Positions 56,228 through 64,000 of a DNA stretch of 64,000 nt are shown here, in pieces. Position 1 is the stretch's first letter. Every line of letters starts with the position of its first letter. The position numbers and the translations under genes are program-made. The notes under the pieces are model-generated. The model did no database searches and was not told the DNA's origin. It worked only from the letters and a program-made list of their open reading frames with translations. Origin of the DNA: Acidimicrobiales bacterium (GTDB lineage Bacteria; Actinomycetota; Acidimicrobiia; Acidimicrobiales; Poriferisodalaceae); NCBI GenBank assembly GCA_014239555.1, contig JAAZYR010000003.1, positions 186,001 to 250,000 on the forward strand, given 5' to 3'.

Positions 56228-58306
56228 CTATTCGCCCGGCTCCACTGTTACGAAGTTGTTCGGGGGAGCAGGAGCTGGAGCTGGGTCCGGGGCTGGATCG
56301 CCAGTGCCGACGATCAGCAATACTTCAGAACCAAGTAACAGATCAGTACCGGGGGAAGGATCGATCCGGATGACTTGCCCGATTAGCAAATCGCCGGGGC
56401 TTAAGGCTTGCTCGACACGCTTCACTTCGTAACCAAGATTTCGGAGCGCGATCTCGACCTGGCTTGCATCAGTCGTGCCCAATATCTCGAGCGAAGGTAC
56501 CTGACCTGTGGCTGGCCCCATTGACACCACTAGACGTACGACGCTCCCTCGTTCGGTCGAGGAACCAAAACCAGGTTCTGAGCGAATAACGGTATTCAGT
56601 GGGAAATCGAGTGAATGCTCCATTAAGACTTCTTCAAGAAGTCCTTGTCGGGCAAGAGTGACTCGAGCATCAGAAATCGATTGGCCCTCGACTGAAGGAA
56701 TTTGCACTTCTCCGCGTCCTATGGAGACCGTGAGGGTGATGACGGTGCCTTGAGGTCTTTCCTCAGTACTTGGCACACTTTGCTCAATGACAATATTGCG
56801 CACATAGTCGTCGCTTTGTTGATCGATTCGTTCGACCGTGAAACCTGCTGCCAGCAGAATTTCTTCTGCTTCTAGGAATTCCATTCGTTGCACCGCTGGG
56901 ATCCTGACAACCGTTAACCCCTTAGAAGCGAAGAGACGAATGGGGTTCTCAGGGTTGTTCGGTTCTGCAAGTAGCAATCCCGCCCGCGGATCCTGCTGGA
57001 ATATTTGGTTTGGTGGGGTGTCTTGGCGTTCCTGAAATTCAATTGTGATGTGTTCGAACCCGCGGTCGCGTAGTTGTTGTTCCGCTTCTTCCCAGTCGAG
57101 ACCAATGACAGCAGGCACTCTAAGACGAGTGGTTTGCTCCTCGGCAACTGGAGACTTGGCGTCTCCGCCGCTCGGATCGAAGCCGTTGATCAGTAGGTAT
57201 ACCAATCCTGCCACCACGATGAGTAGCACTACGAGCAGAGTGGCCCATATGCGGGTTTTGTCCGGTGGTTGAGTTCTCGTAGTAGGTGAATTAGCAGGTG
57301 AGTTTGGTGCCGTCTTTGGCGACGTCTCTGGTGGGCCCGCAGCTGGGACTGTGCCTTGCGCAGCTGGTCGAGTGCCAGGGGATGGCGTCAGGTGTGTTTG
57401 AGCAGTTGTTGCTTGGACCGTCCCGCCCTGCTGCATGGCCAGGACCTGTTGTCCGGTGCGAAAGCGGCGTAAATCGCCTCGCAGATCGTCAGCTGACGCG
57501 TAACGCTGATCTGGATCCTTGGTGAGGCCGAAGAGACAAATTGCTTCTAAGGCGGGGGGCACATCACCATTAAATTGGGAGGGAGCGGTGGGTGCTTCTT
57601 GTACATGCTTATAGGCGATCGACACGGGGGTATCGCCGGTAAAAGGCGGGCCTGCCGTGAGCATCTCATATAGGACTACTGAGAGTGAGTAGACGTCACT
57701 TCTGGGGTCGGCAGGCTGTCCTTGAGCCTGTTCAGGTGAGAGATAGGTGGCGGTGCCCATCACTGACCCAGTCTGAGTCAAGTTATCTGCGGTGTTCCCT
57801 GTGAGTGCCCGAGCGATACCAAAGTCGGTAACTTTTACCTGCCCAGCTGTGGTGACCAGTACGTTCCCCGGTTTGACGTCGCGATGTACGACTCCGTTGT
57901 GGTGTGCGAATGCCAGCGCAGCTGCGATATCGATAGCAATGTCAGCTGCCCGATCGGGGTGCAGTGGGCCTTCGGCTCTGATGATTTCCGCGAGGCTTCG
58001 ACCCTCCACGTATTCCATAACGATGTAGTAAGTGCCTGCTTCTTGACCCCAGTCGTAGACGCCTACCACGTTGGGTTGATTCAAATTTGCTGCTGCCTGT
58101 GCTTCGCGTCGGAAACGTTCAACGAATGATGGATCGGTTGCATATTCGGGGAATAAAACCTTGACCGCTACTGGCCTATCCAAGAGCTTGTCGCGGGCAA
58201 GAAATACTTCGGCCATGCCGCCGCGCGCGATGCGTCGGTACAACTCGTATCGTCCGCTGAAAATAGGGCGATCATTTTCGGGCATAGGTGGGTCTGAGGG
58301 GTTCAC
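56228..58306 (-). CDS. pknB: PASTA-domain serine/threonine protein kinase PknB
   Basis: A 692-residue membrane kinase. The ATP loop is IARGGMAEVF (26-35), the ATP Lys is Lys49 in VAVKVL, the catalytic loop is VHRDVKPGNVL (140-150), the metal Asp is in DFG (161-163), and Thr residues in the activation loop lie at about 177-187. A Pro/Thr-rich linker is followed by one membrane helix (IWATLLVVLLIVVAGLVYLL) and four PASTA repeats outside, each with a VPxVxGL-like start. It senses cell-wall fragments and phosphorylates division proteins. The GTG at 58306 overlaps the PBP stop by four bases (GTGA). The tail is Pro-rich (PAPDPAPAPAPP). The kinase appears active. Confidence 0.95.
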   Translation of the reverse strand: MNPSDPPMPENDRPIFSGRYELYRRIARGGMAEVFLARDKLLDRPVAVKVLFPEYATDPSFVERFRREAQAAANLNQPNVVGVYDWGQEAGTYYIVMEYVEGRSLAEIIRAEGPLHPDRAADIAIDIAAALAFAHHNGVVHRDVKPGNVLVTTAGQVKVTDFGIARALTGNTADNLTQTGSVMGTATYLSPEQAQGQPADPRSDVYSLSVVLYEMLTAGPPFTGDTPVSIAYKHVQEAPTAPSQFNGDVPPALEAICLFGLTKDPDQRYASADDLRGDLRRFRTGQQVLAMQQGGTVQATTAQTHLTPSPGTRPAAQGTVPAAGPPETSPKTAPNSPANSPTTRTQPPDKTRIWATLLVVLLIVVAGLVYLLINGFDPSGGDAKSPVAEEQTTRLRVPAVIGLDWEEAEQQLRDRGFEHITIEFQERQDTPPNQIFQQDPRAGLLLAEPNNPENPIRLFASKGLTVVRIPAVQRMEFLEAEEILLAAGFTVERIDQQSDDYVRNIVIEQSVPSTEERPQGTVITLTVSIGRGEVQIPSVEGQSISDARVTLARQGLLEEVLMEHSLDFPLNTVIRSEPGFGSSTERGSVVRLVVSMGPATGQVPSLEILGTTDASQVEIALRNLGYEVKRVEQALSPGDLLIGQVIRIDPSPGTDLLLGSEVLLIVGTGDPAPDPAPAPAPPNNFVTVEPGE

Positions 58307-59751
58307 TGGGTCCCCTCCAAGTTAGGGCTCGGGAGGCGTAATACTGCCTCAATGATTGAACGTGTAATTCGGGCAACAACAGTTTCGGTGACTTGAGGAT
58401 CGCTGAGTTCGTCACCCTCTAGCAGTACCGCAATAGCGAGCTCTGGTTGCGTCACAGGCGCGATTGCGATCGCCCAAACATGGGGGTGGTCGTTGAATCC
58501 TGACTCCAGCATGCCCGCTACCTCGACATCGTTGAGCGCGAGCGCTCGAGCAGTGCCCCTTTCAACGTTTGCCGCCAACATGGTTTGCAGTCTCAGAGCA
58601 GTGTCGCTTGTGATGGGTTGACCTAACAGTTCCGGAGCGAATTCGCGGATGACAGAACCGTCATGACCTTGAATTTGGTGAACCACACGAGGTCTGATTC
58701 GGAGCCCGTTGTTTGCGATTGTTGCAAATAAGTGCGCTGCGTGGAGAGGAGATAACTGAACACCAATACCGGCTGCGACATGCGGAGCCGATAAACCCAT
58801 TTTGTCGGGTGTGAGAAGCCCCCTCAAGTTACTGCTGGTATCGATCGAGACGCTTTCAGTGAGTCCGAAACTTTTAGATCGATTGCTTAGCTCTGACTGA
58901 CCGAGATCTGAGCCGATGGTTGCCCAACCAGTCCGACAATTGGTGAGCAGTAGCGAAGTCAGATTCCCGCCGCACGTCTCGTTGCGCCTGTTGGTGATGG
59001 GCCCTCCAGGTGGCTCAGCCGCTATGGCGTTTTTCTGAGGAATCACAAAATCTGAGAGCCCCGCTTCAATGGCTGACGCCGCAGTGACTACGGTGAAAAT
59101 CGCTCCAGCTTCGCTGAGATATGAATTAGCTCTGTTCGTCAGTGGGAGGTCCTTGTCTGAATTCAACGCGACTAAATCGTTCGTCACTGCAGCTAAATCA
59201 TGGGAGGACAGGTAGTTGGGATCAAAGTGGGGGGAACTCCACATCGCCAAAACCGCGCCGCTGGAGGGGTCAATCACCACTGCGGCCCCTTGATACCTTC
59301 CCAGAGCAGCTCGTGCCACTAACTGGACATCATGCCTCACTGATAATTCGAGTTGACCGGTGCGTGCACGATCGACAAACAAATCACGTTTGTCTTGGAT
59401 TCGCACCTCGAGGTTATTTCCGGCGAGGAAATCGTTGTGCTTTTGTTCGAGTCCACTGCCGCCGTGTTCTGCGGAAATAAAACCCACGAGGTGGGAGTAC
59501 AGGGAGCCGTACGGATATTGGCGCAAACGCGGACGTGTTCCGCTTACGCCGACGGTTTCCGCGATCGTTTCGCCATCTGCTGTTGTGATGGAACCCCTCG
59601 GGGCATCAAAAACCATCGTGATTTCGCGCGTATTTTGTGGGTGATCGCGAAGGGTGTCAGCCCGAACCACCTGGATCAATTCAAGTTGGACAAAAAGCAG
59701 AACATATATGAGCAAGAGCGCCACGCCTATGTGAAGAATTCGTTTCGTCAT
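58303..59751 (-). CDS. PbpA-like penicillin-binding protein with lost catalytic motifs
   Basis: A 482-residue protein with the PbpA/FtsI layout: a membrane helix (ILHIGVALLLIYVLLFVQLELIQ), a dimerisation/pedestal part (PRGSITTADGETIAET), and a transpeptidase domain. The three penicillin-binding motifs look changed. SxxK is AIFT (217-220; Ser to Ala, Lys to Thr) in SEAGAIFTVVTA; SxN is NCR (271-273) in TNCRTGWATIG; and KTG is MLE (414-416) in VAGMLESGF. The flanking residues still align, so these positions are readable. It may be a scaffold partner of the RodA protein rather than a cross-linking enzyme. The ATG at 59751 overlaps the rodA stop by four bases (ATGA). Family call is firm; loss of activity is inferred. 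Confidence 0.88.
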   Translation of the reverse strand: MTKRILHIGVALLLIYVLLFVQLELIQVVRADTLRDHPQNTREITMVFDAPRGSITTADGETIAETVGVSGTRPRLRQYPYGSLYSHLVGFISAEHGGSGLEQKHNDFLAGNNLEVRIQDKRDLFVDRARTGQLELSVRHDVQLVARAALGRYQGAAVVIDPSSGAVLAMWSSPHFDPNYLSSHDLAAVTNDLVALNSDKDLPLTNRANSYLSEAGAIFTVVTAASAIEAGLSDFVIPQKNAIAAEPPGGPITNRRNETCGGNLTSLLLTNCRTGWATIGSDLGQSELSNRSKSFGLTESVSIDTSSNLRGLLTPDKMGLSAPHVAAGIGVQLSPLHAAHLFATIANNGLRIRPRVVHQIQGHDGSVIREFAPELLGQPITSDTALRLQTMLAANVERGTARALALNDVEVAGMLESGFNDHPHVWAIAIAPVTQPELAIAVLLEGDELSDPQVTETVVARITRSIIEAVLRLPSPNLEGTQ

Positions 59752-61067
59752 GACTGGCTTCGTGACTTCAACTTGATTTTCGGGAGGGTGGCCGTGTGCT
59801 CTGCGCTTTCGGGGCCGCTTTCGGAGATGCGAAGTAACAGTCCCAACGCGAGATTCCAAGTAAGGAGAGCAAATCCGTTAAGGGAAATGAATGGCAAGGA
59901 CACTGCGCTCGGAGGTAAGAGACGCAGAGTTGTCGCGATCGACGCCCATGCCTGAAGTCCCAAAAAGACGGTGACTCCAATAGCGAGGACGCTGTCGAAC
60001 TCTCTTCTGGCTCTCGTCGCTATACGAAGGCCGACTCCTGTCAGCAGCAGATAACCCGACAAGACAGCGGTTGCTCCGAGAAAGCCCAGTTCTTCGCCAA
60101 TTGGCACAAACGCGAAATGGTCTGTTACTCCAGGGACCCAGTCTGGGTTGCCGGCTCCGGGTCCTGTTCCTGTTAACCCTCCACCTGCGAGGGCGAACGA
60201 TGACCGGGTAACGGCGTCTCCTAGCTGAGTGTTCGACCACGGATCGATCCAGGTACTGAGCCGGGTTTGGAACTCAGGGAGCGTTCCGGCTGCCAAAACT
60301 ATCGTGGCAGCAATGGCCCCGAAGGAGCCGGCGAGGTCCAAGGGTCGACCTGCTGCGACCCACCACATCGACATGAATACGACGAATGTGACGATTGCGG
60401 ACCCAGCGTCATATTGGAAAATAAAAATAGCGGATGTGATTAGCCAGCCCCCGAGAAGGGGGATAAGTCGGGAACGGTCGCCTTCGATGTGTTGTGCTTG
60501 ACCCAAATATTCTGCTGTGTTTCGAGTGCGATAATTCGCTAACCACGAAGCAAAAAAAATGATTAAAAATAGCTTCCCGAGTTCCCCGGGGACGATATGA
60601 AGCCCACCCAGATTCAGGGCAAGCGAAATTTCTGAACTGTTGGGAGCCACCTCGGAAATGAGTGGGAGGAAAACAAGCAACACACCTGCGATGCCCAAGG
60701 GGGCATGAACCTTTGAGAGCTGATGGGGATTTCGAATACCTATCGTCACCGCAATGAAGCCAGCCATCCCTATGAGACTCCACGTGATGTGGCGCGAAGC
60801 GAGACTTGGGTCGATTCGTACCGTCAACGCGAACCCGAGACCTTGCAGTAACGCAGCTATTGGGAATAAGACTCCGTTAGCTGTGGGGGCTCGCAGCCGC
60901 AGCGTTATATGTGCGATCGTCCACAGAATGAGCAACGCCACGAGGTACGGCACAACATTCCATGTGATCTCTACCTGTTCGCCGACTGCGGCTAGGGCAA
61001 CGGTTGCGCAGGTGATGAAGGCAGCGAGCAAAAGAAGGGTCAGTTCAACTATCCGCTGGTGGTTCAC
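59748..61067 (-). CDS. rodA: RodA/FtsW-family peptidoglycan glycosyltransferase
   Basis: A 439-residue SEDS-family membrane protein with about ten helices. The catalytic Asp lies in WVPGVTDHFAFVPIGEELGFLG, and GGLTGTGPGAGNP and RLLPPSAVSLPFISLNGFALLTW mark the other conserved loops, though they diverge from the usual GYQ, QS and SYGGSS forms. SEDS proteins polymerise lipid II glycans and work with a class B penicillin-binding protein. The start is GTG 61067: it has GAGGTGA eight bases upstream and begins one base after the PP2C stop. A longer frame from TTG 61106 exists but is less likely. It overlaps the next PBP gene by four bases. Confidence 0.9.
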   Translation of the reverse strand: MNHQRIVELTLLLLAAFITCATVALAAVGEQVEITWNVVPYLVALLILWTIAHITLRLRAPTANGVLFPIAALLQGLGFALTVRIDPSLASRHITWSLIGMAGFIAVTIGIRNPHQLSKVHAPLGIAGVLLVFLPLISEVAPNSSEISLALNLGGLHIVPGELGKLFLIIFFASWLANYRTRNTAEYLGQAQHIEGDRSRLIPLLGGWLITSAIFIFQYDAGSAIVTFVVFMSMWWVAAGRPLDLAGSFGAIAATIVLAAGTLPEFQTRLSTWIDPWSNTQLGDAVTRSSFALAGGGLTGTGPGAGNPDWVPGVTDHFAFVPIGEELGFLGATAVLSGYLLLTGVGLRIATRARREFDSVLAIGVTVFLGLQAWASIATTLRLLPPSAVSLPFISLNGFALLTWNLALGLLLRISESGPESAEHTATLPKIKLKSRSQS

Positions 61068-61068
61068 G

Positions 61069-62322
61069 TCAGCCGTCACCTCGAGATTCGTCGGTAGGGC
61101 CGACAAGTCGAGTTCGGAGTTGCACCACGAAGTTTCGCGCTTCAGCTAAATCGGTGAACTGTTTACCTGCGACCAGATTCCGCTGATCCTGAGCGTTGAG
61201 TTGAATGACCTGGATTGTTGTCCACTCTTCCAACGTTGGGTCAAACCATAAGAGTCCTCCGACTCGACCTTTCTGTATCACCACTTGGTCCGCGACTACA
61301 CCTACGTGGTAGCCGTCGCGGGCGTACCATCCGATGGTCGCAAGCATCGCCGCACTAGCGATCAGCAAAACTATTGAAATGATCACCGCGGCGACGCTTA
61401 TCCCAACTCGGTCGTTCAGCCAACTCCGTTGACTCGTGGCTGAACGCGATGAGGTCTTCGGTGGCGACTCAAATGCGCCAGCAGGAGTAATTGGTTCTGA
61501 GGATGAATCCTCGGATGGCAAAATAACTTGCGCAGGTTCGCTGTCTTCTTGTTGGGTGACCTCTGGGTCGTTTTTGTTGTCAATGTCATCGATCTGGATA
61601 TCGACGACGAGCGCAGTTGAGTTGTCCCGTCCTCCGTGTTCGTTAGCTAAACGGACAAGAGCTTTCGCGGTGGCGCCTGGGTCCTCACTAATGGAGAGTT
61701 GTTCGGCGATTGCGGTGTCGTCAACTTCGTTCGTTAATCCGTCGCTGCATAACAAGAACCGGTCGCCGGCAACGGGATCGACCAGCCATTCGTCTATGTC
61801 AACCTCAGGATGAACACCTATTGCCCGTGTCAGCATGTTGCGATAGGGGTGAACAGCTGCGGCTTCTTCGTCAAGTTCTCCCCGCCGCATTAACTCAGCC
61901 ACATAGCTGTGGTCTTCGGTCAGTTGAGTCAGTTGGTTATTTCGATAGTGATAAATACGTGAATCGCCGACATTGAGTGCGACGAACCGGCGACTGCCGC
62001 CTTCTTGAATGACCGCCAGCGCAGTCAACGTGGTGCCCATCCCATGCAATTCGGGTTGTGCGATCGCTGTCTCGTGTACCACTTTGTTGGCCTCTTGCAC
62101 CGCGTCGTGAAGTTCCCGGACGTTTTCGCGGTCGGCCTTTGTCATAGTGCGGACAGCCAAGTTCGCTGCCACTTCGCCTCCCTGATGACCACCCATGCCG
62201 TCGGCAACTACAAAAAGGCCCCAGTCCGCGTACATCGCATCTTGGTTGTTTGCCCGAACGCGACCTTGATCGGTTGCGCCCCCCCAAGCGAGTCGTAGCC
62301 GGCGTTGTGGCGTGTCGTTCAT
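61069..62322 (-). CDS. pstP: PP2C-family protein phosphatase PstP
   Basis: A 417-residue membrane phosphatase. The metal motifs are GRVRANNQDAM (about 20-30), FVVADGMGGHQGGE (about 37-50), LNVGDSRIYHYRNNQLTQLTEDHSYV and LLCSDGLTNEVDD; GGRDNSTALVVDI ends the domain. A linker rich in Ser/Glu leads to one membrane helix (VAAVIISIVLLIASAAMLATIGW) and an external tail. In actinobacteria it reverses PknB phosphorylation. Metal-binding Asp residues look intact, so it should be active. The ATG at 62322 overlaps the small FHA gene stop by four bases. Confidence 0.93.
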   Translation of the reverse strand: MNDTPQRRLRLAWGGATDQGRVRANNQDAMYADWGLFVVADGMGGHQGGEVAANLAVRTMTKADRENVRELHDAVQEANKVVHETAIAQPELHGMGTTLTALAVIQEGGSRRFVALNVGDSRIYHYRNNQLTQLTEDHSYVAELMRRGELDEEAAAVHPYRNMLTRAIGVHPEVDIDEWLVDPVAGDRFLLCSDGLTNEVDDTAIAEQLSISEDPGATAKALVRLANEHGGRDNSTALVVDIQIDDIDNKNDPEVTQQEDSEPAQVILPSEDSSSEPITPAGAFESPPKTSSRSATSQRSWLNDRVGISVAAVIISIVLLIASAAMLATIGWYARDGYHVGVVADQVVIQKGRVGGLLWFDPTLEEWTTIQVIQLNAQDQRNLVAGKQFTDLAEARNFVVQLRTRLVGPTDESRGDG

Positions 62323-62759
62323 GCCATCACCTCAAAAACCGTTGAACCGATTTGCAAGTGATCGCCGGTTTTTAGGTTTGTAGCTGACGCGACTTTTTGT
62401 CGGTTTAAGTAGGTGCCGTTCGTTGACCCTAAGTCTTCTAACACGTGCTCGTTGTCGCGCCGGAACACGCGCGCATGAATTTGGCTGGCGTAGGTGTCAT
62501 CGATGGTGACGTCACATGTGGCTGCGCGCCCAATCGTCAACTCCTCAGCCAAATTATGTCGCTGCCCCCCCAACGTCTCAGGGGTTCTGACTACGAGAAC
62601 CCGTGCTGGTCGATCATTTCTTACAAAGCGGTTCCTCTTAGGAAGTTTTTCTTTCGCGGGTCGCACCCCTACCCACACTGCACGTATCACTCGAAAGAAA
62701 AACAGGTGGATTAACACAAGTAAGAGAATGGTGAGAAGTCGTACAAGCTGCGGTGACAT
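62319..62759 (-). CDS. fhaB: FHA-domain membrane-anchored protein FhaB (FipA)
   Basis: A 146-residue protein: an N-terminal membrane helix (LLTILLLVLIHLFFF) then a cytoplasmic FHA domain, with LTIGRAATCDVTIDDTYASQIHARVF and DLGSTNGTYLNRQKV giving the phosphothreonine-binding Arg, Ser/His-like and Asn positions. In mycobacteria FhaB/FipA binds phosphorylated FtsZ or other PknB targets. The ATG at 62759 overlaps the upstream FHA gene stop by one base (TGATG). The downstream PP2C start overlaps its stop by four bases. Confidence 0.92.
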   Translation of the reverse strand: MSPQLVRLLTILLLVLIHLFFFRVIRAVWVGVRPAKEKLPKRNRFVRNDRPARVLVVRTPETLGGQRHNLAEELTIGRAATCDVTIDDTYASQIHARVFRRDNEHVLEDLGSTNGTYLNRQKVASATNLKTGDHLQIGSTVFEVMA

Positions 62760-63400
62760 CAAACAACCTCAACTCGTAGGTGATGATCACCGACGGTGAT
62801 GATGTCTCCGTGGAGTAACCGGTGAGTTCCAATTGCCACTCCGGCAACCAACGTTCCGTTGGTGGATCCCAGATCGACGATAAACAGCCCATGTTGGTCA
62901 GCACGAATTTCGGCATGATGGCGACTGACATTGGAGCCGCCAAGGACAACTCCGCAATCGTCATTTCTGCCAAGTATTTGAGGGGTCCTAATCTCGACTC
63001 GAAGACCGTCAGAGGTCACCAAGACGGCGGTGTCGCCTATAGGCGCTTCCCTGAACTCTCCAGACAGTTCGAATCGACCTGCCCTGAAACGGGGGTTCGT
63101 GGCGAAGTCCACTGAGACGGGACCGGTAAAGCCATATGTCCTCGACCGCGCGTATTCGTGTGCAGTTTCGATGAGCTGTCGGCGAAGAGTTTCTTCTAAC
63201 TGTGTAAAGCGGGCACGATCTTTCTCAGCTAACGCGAAAATCAGGTGGTTGGGAACAATCGTGTGACCGTGGGTGTCGGTAGTTCGTTCTTTCTCCAAAA
63301 GACGACTGAGCCGGTGCCCCAACGCCACTGGACGCAATTTGGCGCGAAAGACGCGAGGCAAGGCGTTACCAAACGCTCTAGTGAGGCTTTTGAAACCCAT
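62759..63400 (-). CDS. fhaA: FHA-domain protein FhaA (DUF3662-FHA)
   Basis: A 213-residue protein with the DUF3662 domain at the N-terminus (FGNALPRVFRAKLRPVALGHRLSRLLEKERTTD and later VSVDFATNPRFRAGRFELSG) and an FHA domain at the C-terminus with LGRNDDCGVVLGGSNVSRHHAEI and DLGSTNGTLVAG. FhaA is a target of PknB in actinobacteria and takes part in cell-wall and septal control. Its linker is short compared with the usual long one of mycobacterial FhaA. It is the first gene of the minus-strand signalling cluster and overlaps fhaB by one base. Confidence 0.92.
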   Translation of the reverse strand: MGFKSLTRAFGNALPRVFRAKLRPVALGHRLSRLLEKERTTDTHGHTIVPNHLIFALAEKDRARFTQLEETLRRQLIETAHEYARSRTYGFTGPVSVDFATNPRFRAGRFELSGEFREAPIGDTAVLVTSDGLRVEIRTPQILGRNDDCGVVLGGSNVSRHHAEIRADQHGLFIVDLGSTNGTLVAGVAIGTHRLLHGDIITVGDHHLRVEVV

Positions 63401-63520
63401 CGTGTTCTGAGTGTACGGCCGGTTACTCAGGGGCAGGGGGTCGCCAGACTCTCTAAGTGATGGGTAGGTGCAGCGTGCGGAAGCAACACGATGGCGAGCT
63501 AACCTTGGCTGTTCCCGTTA

Positions 63521-63604
63521 GCGCGAGTGGCGGAATTGGCAGACGCGCAGGCTTCAGGTGCCTGTGCCCGCAAGGGTGTGAGGGTTCAAGTCCCTCCTCG
63601 CGCA
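63521..63604 (+). tRNA. tRNA-Leu (CAG)
   Basis: An 84-base class II tRNA. The acceptor GCGCGAG pairs with CTCGCGC at the 3' end, followed by discriminator A; CCA is not encoded. The D arm has GGCGGAATTGGCAGACGC. The anticodon stem CAGGC/GCCTG frames the loop TTCAGGT with anticodon CAG. A long variable arm follows. The T arm GAGGG-TTCAAGT-CCCTC is perfect. It lies 120 bases upstream of fhaA on the opposite strand. Confidence 0.96.
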
Positions 63605-63666
63605 CTGCACTGCGAAATGCATCTGAGTTACCGTGACCCAGTTGCCATGTGGGAGGCTCGACTCGT

Positions 63667-64000
63667 ATGGCTCGTAAGGATGTTGATTCTTCAACAAGTG
63701 GCAAGGCAGATACTGGATTAGCTGACGCGTTGGCACAGTTCAACAAAGGTGTCGCCACGAGTCGTCAAATGGACAGAGAACAAAAAGCTGTCGCTAAAGC
63801 TGAGAGACGGCGTGATGCTGCGGCCATCAAACTAAAAGATTTGATGCAAAATGATGCGAGTACTGAGGACAAGACTCTCGCCGAAGCTGACTATCGAGAC
63901 GCCTTGGCCGAGTGGACTCGCTTAACGAATCCCGACGTGATAGAGGCTGAAGAACCAGAAGCCCTCGAAACTGAACAACAAAACGAGAGCCAATCGCCAT
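63667..64000 (+). CDS. Hypothetical charged helical protein, 3'-truncated by window
   Basis: The frame starts with ATG 63667 behind GGGAGG (ten bases away) and remains open to base 64000, giving about 111 residues. It encodes a charged sequence rich in Ala, Arg, Lys, Glu and Asp, with a likely helix or coiled coil around MDREQKAVAKAERRRDAAAIKL and acidic stretches near ADYRDALAEWTRL and EAEEPEALETEQQ. No family is recognised. It begins 62 bases after tRNA-Leu, which may share its promoter. Coding character is fair; the true end is outside the window. Confidence 0.6.
   Translation, partial: MARKDVDSSTSGKADTGLADALAQFNKGVATSRQMDREQKAVAKAERRRDAAAIKLKDLMQNDASTEDKTLAEADYRDALAEWTRLTNPDVIEAEEPEALETEQQNESQSP

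Follow-up and report, generated by a model that had tools for sequence, protein, structure and literature searches.

The rodA-pbpA pair in the pknB operon of the window, a stretch of 64,000 nucleotides from an Acidimicrobiales bacterium of the Poriferisodalaceae (contig JAAZYR010000003.1, positions 186,001 to 250,000), has lost or changed active-site residues in both of its proteins and remains under purifying selection; the explanation favoured here, with modest confidence, is that it persists as a non-catalytic membrane complex after a single ancestral loss. The residue losses, their phylogenetic range, the selection, the synteny and the intact alternative synthases were computed directly, and from the sequences we infer that PbpA carries out no transpeptidation and RodA no normal polymerisation. 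The features of pbpA are as follows:

58303..59751, minus strand: pbpA, encoding a class B penicillin-binding protein (PBP)-like product of 482 residues, predicted to be transpeptidase-dead (Pfam, alignment, AlphaFold/Foldseek)
59092..59103, minus strand: PbpA codons 217-220, AIFT replacing SxxK (alignment)
58933..58941, minus strand: PbpA codons 271-273, NCR replacing SxN (alignment)
58504..58512, minus strand: PbpA codons 414-416, MLE replacing KTG (alignment)

The gene starts with the ATG at 59751, within an open reading frame that opens further upstream, at 59859. Its product has the architecture of a class B PBP, consisting of an N-terminal transmembrane segment, a pedestal (PBP_dimer_2, E 3.5e-15) and a transpeptidase domain matched over the full Pfam profile (E 5e-32), and its closest solved structure is the PbpA of Mycobacterium tuberculosis (3un7, E 1.2e-41). 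In the alignment, PPGSTFK, SCN and KTG of 3un7 stand opposite EAGAIFT, NCR and MLE, exactly the replacements given by an earlier sequence-only reading of this DNA, and none of the catalytic motifs of class B PBPs (SxxK, SxN, KTG) is present. By synteny the protein is a PbpA orthologue and, as read from its residues, is not a catalytic member of the class. The AlphaFold model, built on 36 PbpAs, had a mean predicted local distance difference test score (pLDDT) of 86.8, with M. tuberculosis PbpA (3upn) as the top Foldseek match (TM-score 0.87 on target); because of this agreement the fold can be regarded as intact and the residues as truly changed. A catalytic Ser/Lys pair elsewhere in the protein, which the sequence-only reading had named as a finding that would overturn it, is very unlikely, because the transpeptidase domain has no invariant lysine across 18 core sequences, nor within the window genus alone. 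Chance and an assembly or sequencing error were ruled out as the source of the motif loss, since all genomes of the clade agree. PbpA is thus almost certainly transpeptidase-dead, as judged from these residues.

The phylogenetic range was established by searching 39 genomes from the family and 198 from the order, the gene being read in the family genomes holding pbpA and in 128 others; genera and families are given here under the g- and f-numbers of the analysis, with g1 for the window genus. The affected set comprised six genera with 32 genomes carrying pbpA (g1, 6 species; g139, 7; g140, 5; g141, 1; g3, 2; g2, 11), and the SxxK lysine was gone in all of them, being the residue missing in every affected PbpA that still holds the SxxK region. 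All three motifs were gone in g1, g139, g140 and g141 wherever the sequence is complete, the serine being retained in g139 and g140 (SLFT), while g3 had PIFS at SxxK, a kept SCN and KIG at KTG. The g2 proteins, with 417-426 residues, were about 60 residues shorter through deletion of the region that holds SxxK and SxN (based on an alignment of five, the lengths of all 11 and a gapped match of all), and their predicted model was still PBP-like (TM-score about 0.6-0.68). The motifs were intact in the sister genera g135, g137 and g138 (the g136 gene is split by contig ends) and in 127 of 128 PbpAs of the order from outside the family, the remaining one being truncated where its contig ends. The close relatives that carry names are Acidimicrobiia metagenome-assembled genomes (MAGs), one of them labelled Candidatus Microthrix sp. 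UBA2110. A loss limited to one species was ruled out, since it is shared by six g1 species and the further genera. The six genera formed one clade with an ultrafast bootstrap (UFboot) of 69 in a tree built from the kinase, phosphatase and FHA sequences, and of 100 in a larger tree adding mrdA, mre-cluster rodA and mreB; the latter makes it less likely that the loss in g2 was independent of that in the other five genera, though g2 has no SxxK region to compare. A single origin of the degeneration of the pair is the simplest and favoured reading.

The partner gene, for which a normal sequence had been anticipated, was degenerate as well, with positions given in E. coli FtsW numbering:

59748..61106, minus strand: rodA, encoding a protein of the shape, elongation, division and sporulation (SEDS) family with a degenerate active-site cavity, overlapping pbpA by 4 bases (Pfam, alignment)
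60618..60620, minus strand: RodA Ala163 replacing an invariant Trp (W138) (alignment)
60591..60593, minus strand: RodA Val172 replacing an invariant Gln (Q147) (alignment)
60117..60122, minus strand: RodA Asp329-His330, with His in the column of the catalytic Asp (FtsW D297, RodA D262) and Asp one residue earlier (alignment)
59904..59906, minus strand: RodA Ala401 replacing an invariant Gly (G371) (alignment)
59877..59879, minus strand: RodA Asn410 replacing an invariant Gly (G380) (alignment)

The FTSW_RODA_SPOVE domain was recognised in the window RodA (Pfam, E 5.4e-46), and the bit scores against PF01098 fell from about 272-276 in the intact genera to 210-218 in g3, 154-164 in g1, 119-149 in g139-g141 and 116-136 in g2. 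The equivalents of W138, Q147, E150, G199, R246, D297, G371, G380 and G381 were kept in 89 of 89 other operon RodAs and in 18 of 18 mre-cluster RodAs, and the window protein reads A, V, E, G, R, H, A, N and G at these positions. RodA of g139-g141 additionally lacked E150 and K153, the Glu and Lys of extracellular loop (ECL) 2; that of g2 was changed at G199, R246, G371, G381 and mostly at E150, and that of g3 at R246, G371 and G381. In E. coli FtsW, substitutions at W138, Q147, G199, R246, D297, G371, G380 and G381 are non-complementing and dominant-negative, while E150A complements (PMC8765783), and the E. coli RodA-PBP2 complex is inactivated by D262A (PMC10449877). Judged by these positions, the RodA of the clade is very probably no normal polymerase. 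Asn410, like Asp329, was invariant in 19 core RodAs, and these invariant replacement residues look like a new constraint rather than drift. Binding to FtsI and to lipid II is retained by the inactive FtsW cavity variants assayed for it (PMC8765783), and because of this a dead pair could still bind both its partner and lipid II.

The selection on both genes was estimated as omega (dN/dS), the values being single-ratio codon-model estimates on diverged sequences. For pbpA omega was 0.20 in g1, 0.16 in g139, 0.19 in g140 and 0.24 in g2, and within the protein it was lower over the transmembrane segment and pedestal (0.10, 0.08, 0.08 and 0.12, respectively) than over the transpeptidase domain (0.26, 0.21, 0.26 and 0.34). 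The operon rodA of the affected clade had values of 0.15-0.18. Among the intact genera the better-behaved control sets gave 0.04-0.05 for pbpA, with domains nearly alike, and 0.02-0.03 for rodA (the sets g106 and g61 look saturated). For mrdA omega was 0.025-0.06, compared with 0.15-0.24 for pbpA. Among 18 core PbpAs, 66 of the first 150 residues (44%) were invariant, in comparison with 70 of the remaining 332 (21%). Constraint on pbpA is therefore relaxed, most in the catalytic domain, yet far from absent, and the gene shows neither the broken frame nor the omega near 1 of a pseudogene.

A third degenerate synthase was found on the same contig outside the window (G000:C33:112663-114213; L004 1270-2823, minus strand), a protein of 517 residues whose GT51 domain is weak and whose transpeptidase domain survives as a remnant. 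Its orthology to class A PBPs is supported by synteny (rpsR, a poly-A-polymerase-type gene, a GNAT gene and a DUF6049 gene). In g135-g138 the orthologues are complete class A PBPs that carry ED..F, SxFK, S(S/A)N and KTG, while in g1, g139, g140, g141, g3 and g2 the GT51 Glu, SxxK, SxN and KTG are all gone; omega of the degenerate forms (0.18-0.28) indicates purifying selection. Since this unlinked class A PBP has also lost its catalytic residues and is kept, the same clade disarmed two synthase systems and retained both.

Other wall synthases were intact. An mreB...mrdA-rodA cluster occurs in the genomes of the family, and its MrdA motifs (SxFK, SSD, KTG) are intact in every affected genus. 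These genomes also encode FtsI/FtsW and a class A PBP that retains its motifs. The MreB-MrdA-RodA set most likely sustains wall elongation, and together with FtsW-FtsI and the other class A PBP it presumably builds the wall. Redundancy as the sole cause of the loss was ruled out, since the mre cluster is likewise present in sister genera whose PbpA is intact. Compensation by L,D-transpeptidases was not indicated, as these are not expanded (mostly one YkuD protein in affected genomes, two to four in intact genera), and DivIVA matches were missing in g2 only, so that a loss of DivIVA-marked polar growth does not track the whole loss. No PBP_dimer_2 protein was matched in the families f36, f52 and f57 of the order (13 genomes, e.g., G035, G051 and G056), whose genomes have only one or two SEDS genes each; in these families the rodA-pbpA pair seems to have been deleted, and this apparent deletion implies that its retention across six genera is not passive. 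In Corynebacterium glutamicum the RodA-PBP2b pair and the class A PBPs are each able to support polar elongation (PMC8262863), and by analogy the disarmed set may, as a speculation, be a former polar machine.

The order fha-pstP-rodA-pbpA-pknB is retained, with pbpA in the expected slot between rodA and pknB, and the rodA/pbpA overlap of 4 bases (59748-59751) was present in all family genomes checked except G218, in agreement with the operon setting described by the sequence-only reading. The remaining genes of the operon are:

56228..58306, minus strand: pknB, a Ser/Thr kinase with PASTA repeats (Pfam)
61069..62322, minus strand: pstP-type phosphatase gene (position and sequence)
62319..62762, minus strand: FHA-type gene of the same operon (position and sequence)
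62759..63400, minus strand: second FHA-type gene, at the operon start (position and sequence)

Separately, a minus-strand open reading frame of 101 residues (63453-63758) covers a plus-strand tRNA-Leu(cag) gene (63521-63605) and is probably spurious.

According to the favoured explanation, the operon pair would have ceased to be a normal peptidoglycan synthase in the ancestor of the six genera, PbpA losing its acylation machinery (the SxxK lysine initially or at an early stage, followed by SxN and KTG) and RodA much of its SEDS glycosyltransferase cavity. Both proteins would have been kept by purifying selection, the membrane anchor of PbpA and its RodA-contacting pedestal being most constrained, and elongation would most likely have moved to the intact MreB-MrdA-RodA set. 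The pair would now be a non-catalytic membrane complex, most plausibly a scaffold or a sensor of lipid II or wall state, docking with or reporting to PknB/PstP. That the retained function is non-catalytic is probable; a sensor role specifically is speculative and tentative. An extended form, in which RodA, PbpA and the class A PBP (beside rpsR and the poly-A-polymerase-type gene) became pseudoenzymes in a single ancestor and have persisted as a complex without catalysis, for example a lipid II sensor for PknB, with growth moved to the MreB machine, is possible at best. Several observations weigh against the non-catalytic reading: the only tie between the pair and PknB is the shared operon; mrdA was not found in the window's own MAG, where it falls between contigs (C9 ends soon after mreB); RodA of g2 retains W, Q and D; that of g1 retains the ECL2 Glu and Lys, which leaves room for some RodA chemistry; Asp329 is invariant in 19 of 19 core RodAs, so a register shift could preserve the catalytic Asp; and omega about fivefold above that of intact lineages is also compatible with slow decay.

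The sequence-only reading had proposed a maintained, transpeptidase-dead PbpA acting as activator of the RodA glycosyltransferase, and had suggested alignment with mycobacterial and Acidimicrobiia PbpAs and dN/dS as checks. The first part holds: the motif loss is clade-wide, covering six genera with intact sisters, and pbpA is still under selection (about 0.1 in the transmembrane segment and pedestal), which supports a maintained pseudoenzyme as far as sequences can tell. The second part, in which RodA would still be a glycosyltransferase and other PBPs would cross-link, is weakened, because the adjacent RodA is itself degenerate, and is regarded as unlikely. It is consistent with the pedestal and transmembrane segment being best conserved (omega 0.08-0.12; 44% of residues invariant, compared with 21% for the transpeptidase domain), with the passage of SEDS activation through the pedestal-ECL4 interface (PMC8765783), with the invariant Asp of RodA only one residue off the catalytic position and the retained stretches GGLTGTGPG and EELG, and with the near-normal RodA beside a dead PbpA in g3. 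However, the window RodA lacks the equivalents of W138, Q147, G371 and G380, positions at which a substitution inactivates E. coli FtsW (PMC8765783), g139-g141 are additionally without the Glu and Lys of ECL2, and rodA omega is up about fivefold; the intact mreB-mrdA-rodA cluster of the relatives, moreover, offers another elongation synthase.

Less probable still is slow decay, in which the pair is redundant with the MreB-linked set, has no present function and is being lost. The raised omega, the large deletion in the g2 transpeptidase domain and the small genomes (1.7-2.8 Mb) of most affected genera would fit it, but the frames have stayed open in all six genera, at protein identities as low as about 40%, omega is well below 1, the operon and the 4-base overlap are preserved, the replacement residues Asn410 and Asp329 of RodA are themselves invariant, the pair seems to have been cleanly removed elsewhere in the order, and the g2 genomes have 3.0-4.0 Mb, so that streamlining is not the whole explanation. 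Changed catalysis with new residues in both proteins, such as a RodA using the shifted Asp, is highly improbable: the invariance of Asp329 and Asn410 and the serine kept in g139/g140 PbpA speak for it, but the transpeptidase domain has no conserved lysine and the three PbpA motifs vary among genera with no common replacement.

Compared with the PbpA (PBP2b)-RodA pair in the pknB operon of M. tuberculosis and C. glutamicum, the clade pair has the same gene order, overlap, PBP_dimer_2 and transpeptidase domains, fold (3un7/3upn) and SEDS partner, but lacks SxxK, SxN, KTG and cavity residues of RodA. The MrdA (PBP2)-RodA pair of the MreB elongasome, intact in the relatives, is the same kind of SEDS-class B PBP pair, differing in its separate locus, intact catalytic residues and lower omega. 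The dominant-negative FtsW cavity mutants of E. coli share several changed positions (W138, Q147, G371, G380, D297) but are toxic laboratory point mutants, while the state of the clade is natural, fixed and clade-wide (PMC8765783). Lmo0421 of Listeria monocytogenes is likewise a natural, non-canonical FtsW/RodA homologue, unable to replace FtsW or RodA (PMC6624303), in contrast to the present core-operon orthologue, which occurs together with its class B PBP. A phrase search of the open-access literature, incomplete in coverage, found no description of pseudo-PBPs.

This marine actinobacterial clade separates the complex from the chemistry, with the intact sister genera and the pair-deleting families as natural controls. 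SEDS-class B PBP pairs are regarded as synthases, and any purely structural or sensing role of theirs is hard to test, since removal of catalysis kills or deforms model cells. The clade reveals which surfaces are kept once catalysis no longer matters, namely the transmembrane segment and the pedestal, and the retention of a disarmed pair suggests a non-enzymatic job worth finding.
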